From Lysobacter changpingensis (GTDB taxonomy: Bacteria; Pseudomonadota; Gammaproteobacteria; Xanthomonadales; Xanthomonadaceae), in the NCBI RefSeq assembly GCF_017308985.1, contig NZ_JADWPE010000003.1:1302001-1366000 (forward strand): 64,000 nucleotides of DNA, read 5' to 3'. The notes under the pieces were generated by a model that did no database searches, was not told where the DNA came from, and saw only the letters and a list, made by a program, of their open reading frames with translations. Within the stretch, counting starts at the first letter, position 1. Each line of letters opens with the position of its first letter. Below are positions 55,258 through 59,316 of this stretch, piece by piece. Position numbers and translations under genes: made by a program.

Positions 55258-56679
55258 ATGCGCGCAATGCTGTCGGTGGCCATCGCCACCTGTCTGTTCG
55301 CCGCCACCGCAAGCGGTATCGCCGCCGAACGCGAAACGCGCATTCCCGACAACGCCATCGCCACCGCCGCGCAACTGCGCGAGACCGCGCTGAAGAGCGA
55401 CCTGGGCTACCGCATCACCGAATCGCTGACCACCGAAGTCGGACCGCGTCTGGCCGGCAGCGAAGCCGATGCGCGCGCCGTCGCATGGGCCGTGGCCAAG
55501 TTCAAGGAGCTGGGCTTCGACAAGGTCTGGACCGAGCCGGTCACCTTCCCGAAATGGGAACGCCGCAGCGAGTCGGCGCATGTCGTCGGCGATAACGCGC
55601 AGCCGCTGCACCTCACCGCGCTGGGCGGCAGTCCGGCGGGCGTGGTCCAGGCCGAAGTCGTGCGCTTCGCCGACCTGGCCGCGCTGGAAGCCGCACCGGC
55701 CGGCTCGCTTGCCGGCAAGATCGCCTTCATCGATTACAGGATGGAACGCGCCCGTGATGGCGCCGGCTACGGCCCGGGCTCGCGCGTGCGCAGCCGCGGC
55801 CCGTCGGCGGCGATCCGCGCTGGCGCAATCGGCTATCTGATGCGTTCGGCCGGCACCGATTCGCACCGCAATCCGCACACCGGCATCACCCGTTTCGACG
55901 AAGGCCTGACGCCGATTCCCTCCGCCGCGCTCGCCGTGCCCGACGCCGACCAGCTCGGCCGCCTGCTCGCGCGCGGCAAGCCGGTCACGGTGAAGCTGGC
56001 GCTGGATTGCGGCTGGGACGGCACGTACACCTCGCAGAATGTGATCGGCGAGATCCGTGGTTCGAAAAAGCCGGACGAGGTCGTCGTCATCGGCGGCCAC
56101 CTGGATTCGTGGGACCTCGGCACCGGCGCAATCGACGACGGCGCCGGCGTCGGCCTGACCATGGCCGCGGCCAAGCTGATCGGCGATCTCAAGCAGCATC
56201 CGGCGCGCACGATCCGCGTGGTCGCGTTCGCCAACGAGGAACAGGGCCTGCACGGCGGCAAGGCGTACGCGGCCGAGCACATGAAGGACGTCCTCAAGCA
56301 CCAGATCGGCGCCGAGAGCGACTTCGGCGCGGGCCGCATCTACGCCTATTCCAGCTCCGCGCCGGCGCACGCGAAGGCCGCCGACGCGCAGATCGCGCAG
56401 GCGCTGGCGCCGCTGGGCATCGAGTACGTGCCGGGCCAGGGCGGTCCGGGCCCGGACATCGGCCCGTCGGCCGAGAAGGGCATGGCCTGGGCGCGACTGG
56501 CGCAGGACGGCACCGACTACTTCGATCTTCATCACACCCCCGACGACACGTTCGATAAAATCGACCCGCAGGCGCTGGCGCAGAATGTCGCGGCCTATGC
56601 GGTATTCGCCTACCTGGCGGCGTCCGCGGAGGGCGACTTCGGCAGCAAGCCCGCGACTCCCCAGGCAGCGACGAAGTAA
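55258..56679 (+). CDS. Exported M28-family zinc aminopeptidase
   Basis: A 473-residue protein with signal peptide (SVAIATCLFAATASGIAAE). A PA-like insert spans about residues 140-250 (LAGKIAFIDYRMERARDGAG). The catalytic domain holds the zinc ligands: VIGGHLDSWDLGTGAIDDGA (His, Asp), FANEEQGLHGGKAY (catalytic and ligand Glu) and FDLHHTPDDTFDKID (His). It likely removes N-terminal residues from peptides in the periplasm or outside the cell, in keeping with a protein-degrading lifestyle. It stands 370 bases beyond mscL, and the next gene starts 11 bases downstream. Confidence 0.92.
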   Translation: MRAMLSVAIATCLFAATASGIAAERETRIPDNAIATAAQLRETALKSDLGYRITESLTTEVGPRLAGSEADARAVAWAVAKFKELGFDKVWTEPVTFPKWERRSESAHVVGDNAQPLHLTALGGSPAGVVQAEVVRFADLAALEAAPAGSLAGKIAFIDYRMERARDGAGYGPGSRVRSRGPSAAIRAGAIGYLMRSAGTDSHRNPHTGITRFDEGLTPIPSAALAVPDADQLGRLLARGKPVTVKLALDCGWDGTYTSQNVIGEIRGSKKPDEVVVIGGHLDSWDLGTGAIDDGAGVGLTMAAAKLIGDLKQHPARTIRVVAFANEEQGLHGGKAYAAEHMKDVLKHQIGAESDFGAGRIYAYSSSAPAHAKAADAQIAQALAPLGIEYVPGQGGPGPDIGPSAEKGMAWARLAQDGTDYFDLHHTPDDTFDKIDPQALAQNVAAYAVFAYLAASAEGDFGSKPATPQAATK

Positions 56680-56690
56680 CCAGGAAGGCA

Positions 56691-58424
56691 ATGGCGCAGC
56701 GGTACGACGACAAAGTTGATACCGCGGTCGATCCGATCACGGGACTGCACCGCCTCGGGGCCAACGGCCCCAGCCTGGCGACGGCCATCGCGGTCGCGGG
56801 CGCGACGCGGCGGCGCATCGCGCTGCTGCACATCGACGTGGACATGTTCCGCTCGATCAACACCAACATGGGCTCGGCGACCGGCGACCAGGCACTGGCC
56901 GCCATCGCCCAGCGGCTGCGCCGCGCGGTGCCGCGCGACGGCTGGATCTGGCGCCTGGCCAGCGACGAGTTCGTCATCGGCGTGGGATATCGCGAAGGCG
57001 AACTCGATGGCGCCGGCCTCGCGGAAAGATTGCGCGATGCGTTCGAAACGCCGCTGTCGATTCCGCCCTACACGCTGCCGGTGACGCTCTCCATCGGCAT
57101 CGCCGTGTTCCCCGACCATGCGCCCAACGCCGCGACGCTGCTGTCGAAGGCCGAGGAAGCGCTGCGCCGGGTGAAGCAGGAAGGTCTGAACAACGTCGGC
57201 CTGTATTCGGCGGCGGAAGATCGCGGCGCGCCGAACGACGGCTTCGCGCAGCGCTTCGTGGAGGCGCTCGATCGCGGCGAGTTCCGCCTGTACTACCAGC
57301 CGCAGGTCGCCGCGCACGATGGCGGCGTCACCGGGTTCGCCGCGCTGCTGCGCTGGCAGACCGATCGCGGACTGCTGCGTCCGAGCCAGTTCCTCGAACC
57401 GATCAACCGCGTCGGTCTCGCCGCGCGCCTGGGCGCGTGGGTCGTGGAATCGGCGATCGCGCAGCTCGCGCAATGGCGCGCCGAAGGGCTGGATTACCTG
57501 TCGATGTCGGTGCACCTGTCCGGCCCGCTGCTGGTGCAGCGCGATTGCCTGGACCGCATCGGCGCGCTGCTGCATCGTTACGGCCTGCCCGGCAACGCGC
57601 TGGAATTCGAGATTCCCGAAAGCGTGCTGGTCACCGACAGCCATCGCGTGCACGACACGCTCACCGGCCTGCGCGCGATGGGCGCGACGCTGACGGTGCA
57701 GGACTTCGGCCTCGGCGGGCTGTCCTTCGCCGCACTCGGCCAGTACCCGCTGGACCGCATCAAGATCGACCGCAGCTTCATCCGCAACGTCGCCAGCGAT
57801 CCGCGCAGCGCGGCGATCGTGCGCGGCATCATCGCGATGGGCCACCAGCTGGGCATGAAGGTGATCGCCAAGGGCGTGGAAAGCGAGGCCGAACTCGGCT
57901 TCCTGCGCCGCAACCATTGCGATTTCTTCCAGGGCTACCTGTTCAGTCCGTCGGCGCCGGCGGACCAGCTCGGCGAAGTGGTGCGCAAGCGCTTCCTGCT
58001 GCCCGGCGCGTTCGCCGCCACGCGCCCGGAGCGCACGCTGCTGCTGCTGGACGACGAGGAAAACGTGCTGCGCTCGCTGGTGCGTCTGTTCCGCCGCGAC
58101 GGCTACCAGATCCTCACCGCATCGAGCGTCCGCGAGGCGTTCGACCTGCTCGCTAGCAACACCGCGCAGGTGATCCTCTCCGACCAGCGCATGGCCGACA
58201 TGAGCGGCACCGAGTTCCTCACGCGCGTGCGCGATCTCTACCCCGACACGATCCGGATGGTGCTGTCGGGCTACACCGACCTTGCGACGATCACCGAGGC
58301 GATCAACCGCGGCGCGATCTACCGCTTCCTCACCAAGCCGTGGAACGACGAGGAACTGCGCGAGCACATCCTCGACGCCTTCCGCGCGCACGAGCGCCGC
58401 GCCGCCGGCGAATCGGTGTACTGA
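56691..58424 (+). CDS. Degenerate GGDEF-EAL protein with C-terminal receiver domain
   Basis: A 577-residue cytoplasmic protein. The GGDEF-like domain (about 10-175) keeps LLHIDVDMFRSINTNMG but has RLASDEFVIG in place of R-x-GGDEF. The EAL-like domain (about 185-435) has FAALLRWQ for FEALLRW, SVHLS for SVNLS, VQDFGLGGLSF for DDFGTGYSS and IAKGVE for IAEGVE, though LEFEIPES, IKIDRSFI and FQGYLFSP remain. Four catalytic or metal positions are thus changed. A receiver domain (about 447-565) follows: LLLLDDEEN, phospho-acceptor Asp in VILSDQRMADMSG, Lys in FLTKPWND, close to RpfG-like receivers. Probably a non-enzymatic c-di-GMP-pathway or scaffolding protein. Confidence 0.9.
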   Translation: MAQRYDDKVDTAVDPITGLHRLGANGPSLATAIAVAGATRRRIALLHIDVDMFRSINTNMGSATGDQALAAIAQRLRRAVPRDGWIWRLASDEFVIGVGYREGELDGAGLAERLRDAFETPLSIPPYTLPVTLSIGIAVFPDHAPNAATLLSKAEEALRRVKQEGLNNVGLYSAAEDRGAPNDGFAQRFVEALDRGEFRLYYQPQVAAHDGGVTGFAALLRWQTDRGLLRPSQFLEPINRVGLAARLGAWVVESAIAQLAQWRAEGLDYLSMSVHLSGPLLVQRDCLDRIGALLHRYGLPGNALEFEIPESVLVTDSHRVHDTLTGLRAMGATLTVQDFGLGGLSFAALGQYPLDRIKIDRSFIRNVASDPRSAAIVRGIIAMGHQLGMKVIAKGVESEAELGFLRRNHCDFFQGYLFSPSAPADQLGEVVRKRFLLPGAFAATRPERTLLLLDDEENVLRSLVRLFRRDGYQILTASSVREAFDLLASNTAQVILSDQRMADMSGTEFLTRVRDLYPDTIRMVLSGYTDLATITEAINRGAIYRFLTKPWNDEELREHILDAFRAHERRAAGESVY

Positions 58425-58428
58425 CGCG

Positions 58429-59316
58429 TCAGTACGCGAGCTGTACGCCGCGCAGCGGCTGCACGGACAACGCCGGCTCGTCGATGCGGCGGCCCGCGGC
58501 GAATTCGAACTCCACCGGATCGTGCGAGCAGAAGATCCGCACGTGCGCGCCATCGCGCGCGTGCAGCGCACGCAGCCGCGCCTGGTTCGCGAGCCGCGAC
58601 CGGCGGTCCTTCTCCATCATCCACTGGTAGAAGCGCAATCCCGGCGTGCACGAGGGATCGGCCTCCATCTCGTGATGGCAGAAATACGCGTCCCCTGCGA
58701 GCAGTTTCCAGCCATCGTCCGCGTCGATCGCCACGCCCGTGTGCCCGTGCGTGTGGCCGGACAGCGGCACCAGCAGGATCTCCGGCGGCACGCCCGGCAG
58801 GTCGCGCACGCATTCGAAGCCGAGCCAGTCGTCGCCCGCCTGCGGCGAGTACACCGTCCAGCGATCGCGCGTGGACCATTGCTGCGGACGGAAGCGCTGG
58901 CGATCGAGCCAGGTCTTCTGCTGCATCGCGTAACCGCGCTCGGTCGCCACCAGGTGCACGCGCGCGCGCGGGAAATCGTCGAGCCCGCCCGCGTGGTCGA
59001 AATCCAGGTGCGTCAGCACGATGTGCCCCACGTCGCGCGGGTCGAAACCCATCGCCTCGATCTGCCGCACCGCCGTCATCGATTCGCGGAAGTCCGGGCT
59101 GAGCAGCGCGAGGAAGAACGCGCTGAGCCGGCCGCGTGGATCGGCGACATCGCGCAGCCCGAGGCCGGTATCGACCAGCACGAGCTCGTTGCGCGATTCC
59201 ACCAGCACGCAATGGCAGGCGAGCCGGCCGCGTTCGAGGATGCCGCGCGTGCGCCCGTCCATCAGCCGTCCGCCGAGCGGACAGGTCGAGATGCAGTTGA
59301 GATGATGGATGCGCAT
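58429..59316 (-). CDS. Metallo-beta-lactamase-fold hydrolase (AHL lactonase-like)
   Basis: A 295-residue protein with the zinc motif THLDFDHAGGLDDF (H-x-D-x-D-H; the first His of HxHxDH is retained as TH), LVDTGLGLRD upstream, SGHTHGHTGVAID and LLAGDAYFCHHEMEADPS downstream, and FCSHDPVEFE at the end. This spacing resembles quorum-quenching N-acyl-homoserine lactonases and related hydrolases (AttM/AiiA superfamily), but the family also includes enzymes with other lactone substrates. The N-terminal HHLNCISTCPLGG is a feature of this subgroup. No signal peptide; the S9 peptidase gene lies upstream on the same strand. Confidence 0.82.
   Translation of the reverse strand: MRIHHLNCISTCPLGGRLMDGRTRGILERGRLACHCVLVESRNELVLVDTGLGLRDVADPRGRLSAFFLALLSPDFRESMTAVRQIEAMGFDPRDVGHIVLTHLDFDHAGGLDDFPRARVHLVATERGYAMQQKTWLDRQRFRPQQWSTRDRWTVYSPQAGDDWLGFECVRDLPGVPPEILLVPLSGHTHGHTGVAIDADDGWKLLAGDAYFCHHEMEADPSCTPGLRFYQWMMEKDRRSRLANQARLRALHARDGAHVRIFCSHDPVEFEFAAGRRIDEPALSVQPLRGVQLAY

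Follow-up and report, generated by a model that had tools for sequence, protein, structure and literature searches.

A Lysobacter-clade orthologue of the flagella-linked response regulator RavR/PdeR with a replaced phosphodiesterase site

Background

Can a response regulator whose site for hydrolysing cyclic diguanylate (c-di-GMP) has been replaced still serve the signalling circuit to which it belongs? The question is raised by a gene with GGDEF, EAL and receiver domains in the window, a stretch of 64,000 nucleotides of Lysobacter changpingensis (contig NZ_JADWPE010000003.1, positions 1,302,001 to 1,366,000). The initial annotation of this gene, made from the letters alone, described two degenerate c-di-GMP domains joined to an intact receiver. 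The RavA/RavS/RavR system and its tie to flagella were absent from that account and were found here by orthology.

RavR of Xanthomonas campestris (XCC1958) is described in the available parts of PMC6707612 as having two functions, that of a phosphate sink and that of a hydrolytic counter-arm: its receiver acts as the sink for RavS and needs D496, RavA acts on the same regulator, and the EAL domain, whose activity requires the E-A-L motif, removes c-di-GMP and counters the sink. Deletion of the EAL domain is reported to have lowered swimming in X. campestris. For Stenotrophomonas maltophilia, the excerpts at hand describe RavR and the flagellar regulator FsnR as rivals for phosphate from RavS, and the EAL domain of PdeR of X. 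oryzae is said, in the accessible text of PMC6637768, to bind the regulator TriP. PMC8463545 names RavR in its reference list only. A whole clade in which the hydrolytic site is replaced and the receiver kept is a natural experiment that could separate the sink and hydrolysis roles, which matters because, in the accounts available, losing ravR is reported to shift swimming one way in X. campestris and the other way in S. maltophilia.

Identity and domain organization

The gene at 56691-58424 on the forward strand is an ORF of 577 residues with an ATG start (ORF list and translation). It encodes a GGDEF domain (residues 12-167, 56724..57191, +; Pfam 2.7e-25), an EAL domain (residues 188-420, 57252..57950, +; Pfam 2.5e-65) and a receiver domain (Response_reg, residues 451-560, 58041..58370, +; Pfam 2.5e-20). 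All of the substitutions listed in the initial annotation are present, in the motifs ASDEF (90-94), AALLRW (217-222), SVHLS (273-277), QDFG (337-340) and AKGVE (393-397), and its description of a full receiver with Asp and Lys was borne out: D454, D498, S526 and K549 are found in this protein and in 96 of 96 orthologues. The codon of D498 (58182..58184, +), the predicted phospho-acceptor, corresponds to D496 of X. campestris RavR by alignment and literature. Searched alone, the receiver has 2rjn, the receiver of an HD-domain regulator, as its best PDB sequence match and NosR as its top-scoring NCBIfam model.

By orthology the gene is RavR/PdeR, known from Xanthomonas and Stenotrophomonas, in its Lysobacter-clade form. 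Among 59 relatives searched, full-length GGDEF-EAL-receiver matches extend down to 37% identity; the named loci assign the close group to Lysobacter, Vulcaniibacterium, Luteimonas and a Thermomonas bin; Xanthomonas supplies two matches at 53%. Full-length matches occur in ten of twelve same-genus genomes, and 96 of 197 genomes of the bacterial family possess a RavR orthologue, each as a single full-length match; one tree holds them all. This identity agrees with the order of the domains, with the GSDEM motif carried by some Xanthomonas-type sequences, and with neighbours that match what the accessible portions of PMC6707612 and PMC6637768 describe for X. campestris and X. oryzae. RavR of X. 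campestris and PdeR of X. oryzae share with the window protein the three domains, the matching phospho-acceptor, a degenerate GGDEF motif (GSDEM in X. campestris), a nearby RavA-type kinase gene and flagellar genes in the vicinity. The C-terminal receiver, which had been thought unusual, is the rule within RavR/PdeR. More distant relatives (L031-L036 and L038) have N-terminal extensions that by eye resemble receiver and PAS segments.

Replacement of the phosphodiesterase site in one clade

Eight EAL positions (E, N, E, D, D, K, E and Q in canonical enzymes) were read in the 96 orthologues. The window protein reads AHEQDKKQ, an incomplete set, and the complete canonical set is found in 13 of 96. 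Thirty-six orthologues, including that of the window, form one side of a single tree branch (SH-aLRT 100), and three positions divide them from the rest: Glu217, Asn275 and Asp337 are present in 60 of 60 orthologues outside the clade and in none of the 36 within it. The window codons are A217 (57339..57341, +), H275 (57513..57515, +) and Q337 (57699..57701, +; the first Asp of DDFG elsewhere). Across the clade, position 217 is S in 21, A in eight, G in five and N in two; position 275 is H in 32, P in three and Q in one; and position 337 is Q in 29, G, M and A in two each, and R in one. At position 394 (57870..57872, +), the Glu of EGVE in canonical enzymes, Lys is found in all 36. One change of state of the EAL Glu accounts for the split on the tree, which is of a quick kind without bootstraps, includes the catalytic columns and is unrooted; the change is taken as a loss rather than a gain because other EAL proteins (L026-L030) have the Glu. 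The substitutions recur in nine same-genus orthologues (L002-L010) and so are not due to chance or sequencing error. Restored canonical residues in close orthologues, which the initial annotation had named as evidence against its own proposal, were looked for and are absent at these positions in 36 of 36 clade members.

By motif, positions 217, 275 and 337 correspond to Glu39, Asn98 and Asp160, which are among the metal-1 ligands of the active EAL enzyme PA3825 in the accessible text of PMC5301497. The fourth metal-1 ligand position, E307 by motif order, is kept, and three of four are therefore replaced. Elsewhere in the pocket, Q203, R221, E307 and D338 are present in 36 of 36 clade members, E397 in 35, K358 and D360 in 33, and Q414 in 31. 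Judged from these residues, a set chosen after the motifs had been seen, the pocket looks like one that has lost catalysis, unlike one in general decay. The proposal of a phosphorylation-controlled, non-enzymatic protein thus stands as a sound inference from site loss in 36 of 36, one change on the tree and a receiver kept in 96 of 96, with the inactivity itself read from the residues; this support does not extend to the further idea of a signalling hub. The papers listed by a literature search yielded no experimental work on any clade member.

Missing motifs are not in themselves proof of inactivity, because RavR/PdeR is reported, in the sources as available, to be active although the Xanthomonas type lacks two canonical residues. 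The 41 Xanthomonas-type sequences (L014, L016-L018, L066, L067 and others) are without the second Asp of DDFG and the Glu of EGVE, reading ENEDNKNQ in 40 and ENEDSKNQ in one, and so run against the usual residue rules; other near-complete strings are ENEDDKHQ (five) and ENEDDKQQ (one). XOC_2393 is described as having every key EAL residue in the part of PMC4823724 available, at odds with DNFG and ANGVE in 14 of 14 GSDEM-bearing sequences here. The Xanthomonas type, and likewise RavR of S. maltophilia, keeps the EAL Glu, Asn and first Asp, whereas the window protein has all three replaced and Lys for the Glu of EGVE. The genome of the window encodes eight EAL domains, of which six are canonical in most of the residues examined; the remaining two are that of the window and a FimX-like domain (L217; best match 4f3h, 7e-80).

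The GGDEF change is mild and family-wide, the EAL change severe and clade-specific, as the aligned residues have it. The ASDEF motif of the window protein departs from the GG(D/E)EF of canonical diguanylate cyclases, and it does not recur in same-genus orthologues, which have TSDEF (eight) or GSDEF (L010). None of the 96 orthologues has the GGDEF motif proper: the second position is Ser in 78, GSDEF is commonest (34), and three begin with GGD (GGDRF, GGDAF and GGDTF). No RxxD inhibitory site was found in the GGDEF domain of the window protein, which reads VPRDGWIWR at the place expected from the position of this site in PleD. The GSDEM domain of X. campestris RavR is described as having no cyclase activity in the text available from PMC6707612. 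Six sequences (L023 and L205-L209) have undergone the opposite kind of decay, with the GGDEF motif wholly lost (RGACL) and the EAL set complete.

Selection and fold model

The ravR gene of the window is under purifying selection. Whole-gene dN/dS was estimated against eight same-genus orthologues (L007 was left out): seven give values of 0.044-0.088 and the remaining one, L010, gives 0.176. Against L051 of Vulcaniibacterium it is 0.190. The receiver, the part predicted to face the partner kinases, is the most constrained by sequence comparison: identity to six Xanthomonas-type orthologues is 82-84% in the receiver and 37-48% in GGDEF and EAL, and against L010 and L051 dN/dS is 0.28 and 0.24 in the EAL domain and 0.08 in the receiver. 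An AlphaFold model (mean pLDDT 84.2, pTM 0.51) is credible for the individual predicted domains and not for their arrangement. The best structural match of its EAL domain is BifA (Z 34.9), followed by MucR (33.6) and others that lie within about one Z unit of it; the EAL domains of FimX and LapD score 30.1 and 27.1.

Gene neighbourhood and co-occurrence with flagella

A gene for an M28 peptidase (55258..56679, +; ORF, Pfam) ends 11 bases upstream of ravR and is a frequent neighbour in the clade; of 22 named loci checked, 18 have a relative of it immediately before ravR, the exceptions being L064-L067. On the other side, 4 bases separate the end of ravR from a convergent gene with a metallo-beta-lactamase fold (58429..59316, -; ORF, Pfam). 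Flagellar neighbours were examined at this locus and a handful of others. From 14 kb downstream of ravR, the genome of the window has a kinase and relatives of FlgN, CheV, flgB and flgC. At the Lysobacter-type locus L054, a convergent kinase and FlgN (both by Pfam) come after ravR, then genes that by eye resemble flgB-flgD, in the same order as at the L066 locus. In X. chitinilytica (L066), a PAS-domain kinase of 722 residues (RavS-like) precedes ravR, and a convergent kinase of 434 residues (RavA-like), a CheV-type gene and flgB-flgD-like genes (by eye) follow it. The names RavA and RavS are assigned here by position and domains, not by a named reference sequence.

The RavA-like kinase gene of the window genome lies beyond the window at G000:C3:1374547-1375770, 14 kb past ravR. 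The intervening stretch of about 14 kb (G000:C3 1360422-1374546, from window position 58422 to about 8.5 kb beyond the window end) contains the metallo-beta-lactamase-fold gene, an S9 peptidase gene and others. Five same-genus genomes (G000, G001, G003, G004 and G009) have 9-14 kb between ravR and the kinase gene; the distance is shorter in G008 (1.8 kb) and G006 (about 0.5 kb). A RavA-like kinase was found in 97 of 197 family genomes, including 96 of 96 with RavR; it is encoded within 1 kb of ravR in 76 of these, further off on the same contig in 15 and on another contig in five.

The distribution of RavS is different. RavS-like matches at E<=1e-60 occur in 66 of 197 family genomes, and ravS lies within 500 bases of ravR at all 41 Xanthomonas-type loci. 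In the clade of the window ravS is beside ravR in none of 36; 25 members have a RavS-like match elsewhere at E<=1e-60 (44-62% identity over the matched part in a one-way search) and 11 have none at that threshold. The other 19 genomes with RavR have neither ravS beside ravR nor a RavS match at E<=1e-60. Judged by gene order and sequence matches, adjacency of ravS thus appears to characterize the Xanthomonas type and not all orthologues; S. maltophilia shares it. A joint loss of RavS and phosphodiesterase activity was considered and rejected, because Glu, Asn and Asp persist in the 19 genomes that belong to neither group and have no RavS match at E<=1e-60, and because a RavS-like match is still present elsewhere in 25 of the 36 clade genomes.

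Of the 197 family genomes, 94 possess both RavR and flagellin and 91 neither; two have RavR only and ten flagellin only (96 with RavR and 104 with flagellin in all). Among the sequences listed, contrasts within a genus agree with this pattern in g1 (G007 neither), g3 (G013 neither, G115 both), g6 (G016 neither, G091 both), g52 (G067 neither, G106 both) and g58 (G073 neither, G108 and G134 both). They disagree where flagellin occurs without RavR in G027 (g17), G152 (g23) and G184 (g10), congeners of which have both, and where RavR occurs without flagellin in G196 (g70). The remaining mismatches, eight in number, are G015, G090, G117 and G142 (g5), G068, G107 and G133 (g53), and G087. The co-occurrence partly reflects ancestry and gene neighbourhood; Fisher's p takes no account of shared descent and was set aside.

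Proposed function and alternatives

The gene belongs to a known family in an unusual state, that of a clade-wide conserved, flagella-linked response regulator with a replaced phosphodiesterase site. From the observed orthology, gene neighbourhood, co-occurrence, single clade of altered sites and conservation, we infer phosphotransfer, absence of activity and an effect on flagella: Lysobacter-clade RavR probably still takes phosphate in a flagellar circuit and no longer hydrolyses c-di-GMP. The RavA-like kinase, and perhaps also the RavS-like kinase encoded elsewhere, would pass phosphate to D498 of the receiver, and the receiver would thereby drain or relay phosphate in a circuit that sets flagellar gene expression. 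With most of the metal-1 site gone, the EAL domain would no longer hydrolyse c-di-GMP; it would be kept as a folded, selected domain, most likely positioning or regulating the receiver and possibly binding nucleotide. The clade would thus have retained the receiver and the RavA-like kinase and replaced the counter-arm site. Confidence in this reading is lowered because the sink role was shown with RavS, and partnership with RavS may be special to the Xanthomonas type, since ravS is adjacent only there.

What the EAL domain now does admits several answers. It may, tentatively, have become a metal-free c-di-GMP receptor like FimX and LapD, whose ligand tunes phosphotransfer so that the phosphate sink is gated by c-di-GMP; both proteins bind c-di-GMP without metal according to the accessible text of PMC5301497, PMC3032553 and PMC3527489, and both are structural matches of the modelled domain. 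The eight conserved pocket positions together with K394 have a mean conservation of 0.963, against 0.774 for random EAL positions (2 of 2000 draws), and 0.912 against 0.775 (13 of 2000) when the three replaced ligand positions are added, but the set was chosen after seeing the motifs and conservation driven by the fold would look alike. Moreover, subclades have lost some residues of the pocket (K358Q and D360G in three, Q414L in five of 36), the model is closer to active phosphodiesterases such as BifA, and FimX differs at the same sites (EQFG, AEFV). A bolder version, which we regard as distinctly unlikely, is that one ancestor rebuilt a phosphodiesterase regulator into a metal-free nucleotide sensor in which Lys394 and His275 replace the catalytic metals, and c-di-GMP on RavR, not RavS, gates the drain of phosphate from flagellar kinases. 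It is rather doubtful that EAL and GGDEF have become solely a scaffold or protein-binding surface that holds no nucleotide: the binding of TriP by the EAL domain of PdeR and the faster evolution of EAL than receiver in the two more diverged comparisons would fit, but Lys394 is fixed and the polar residues of the pocket are for the most part retained, which would be needless in a pure scaffold.

Residual hydrolysis, with the replacement residues compensating for the lost ligands, is very improbable. The reported activity of Xanthomonas-type RavR despite two substitutions, and the conservation of two replacements (Lys394 in 36 of 36 and His275 in 32 of 36), speak for it, but the replaced metal-1 positions include the motif Glu required in X. 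campestris RavR. That the gene is a decaying relic without function is scarcely credible: catalytic residues are lost, but the low dN/dS of most same-genus comparisons, the full length and the receiver residues kept in every orthologue argue otherwise.

FimX and LapD were also considered as orthologues and rejected, the domain order being neither REC-PAS-GGDEF-EAL nor HAMP-GGDEF-EAL and the genome having a separate FimX-like EAL domain; they are at most analogues that illustrate a possible way of working. The receiver and PAS domains of FimX are N-terminal, and LapD presumably has no receiver domain. FimX of Pseudomonas and Xanthomonas has a degenerate GGDEF-EAL pair with metal-free c-di-GMP binding, as the accessible accounts describe it, but serves type IV pili. 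LapD of Pseudomonas is, in those accounts, a c-di-GMP receptor with GGDEF-EAL in which the EAL Glu is lost (KVL), but it is a membrane receptor with HAMP and periplasmic output.

Two further genes of the window genome are candidate members of the predicted flagellar circuit of RavR. One encodes the RavS-like kinase at G000:C4:53140; the other, at G000:C4:5092, has a GerE domain and lies about 4 kb away from the flagellin gene (C4:469-882). At L152 in G087, a genome in which no flagellin was found, RavR, RavA-like, RavS-like and LuxR-type-looking genes lie side by side.
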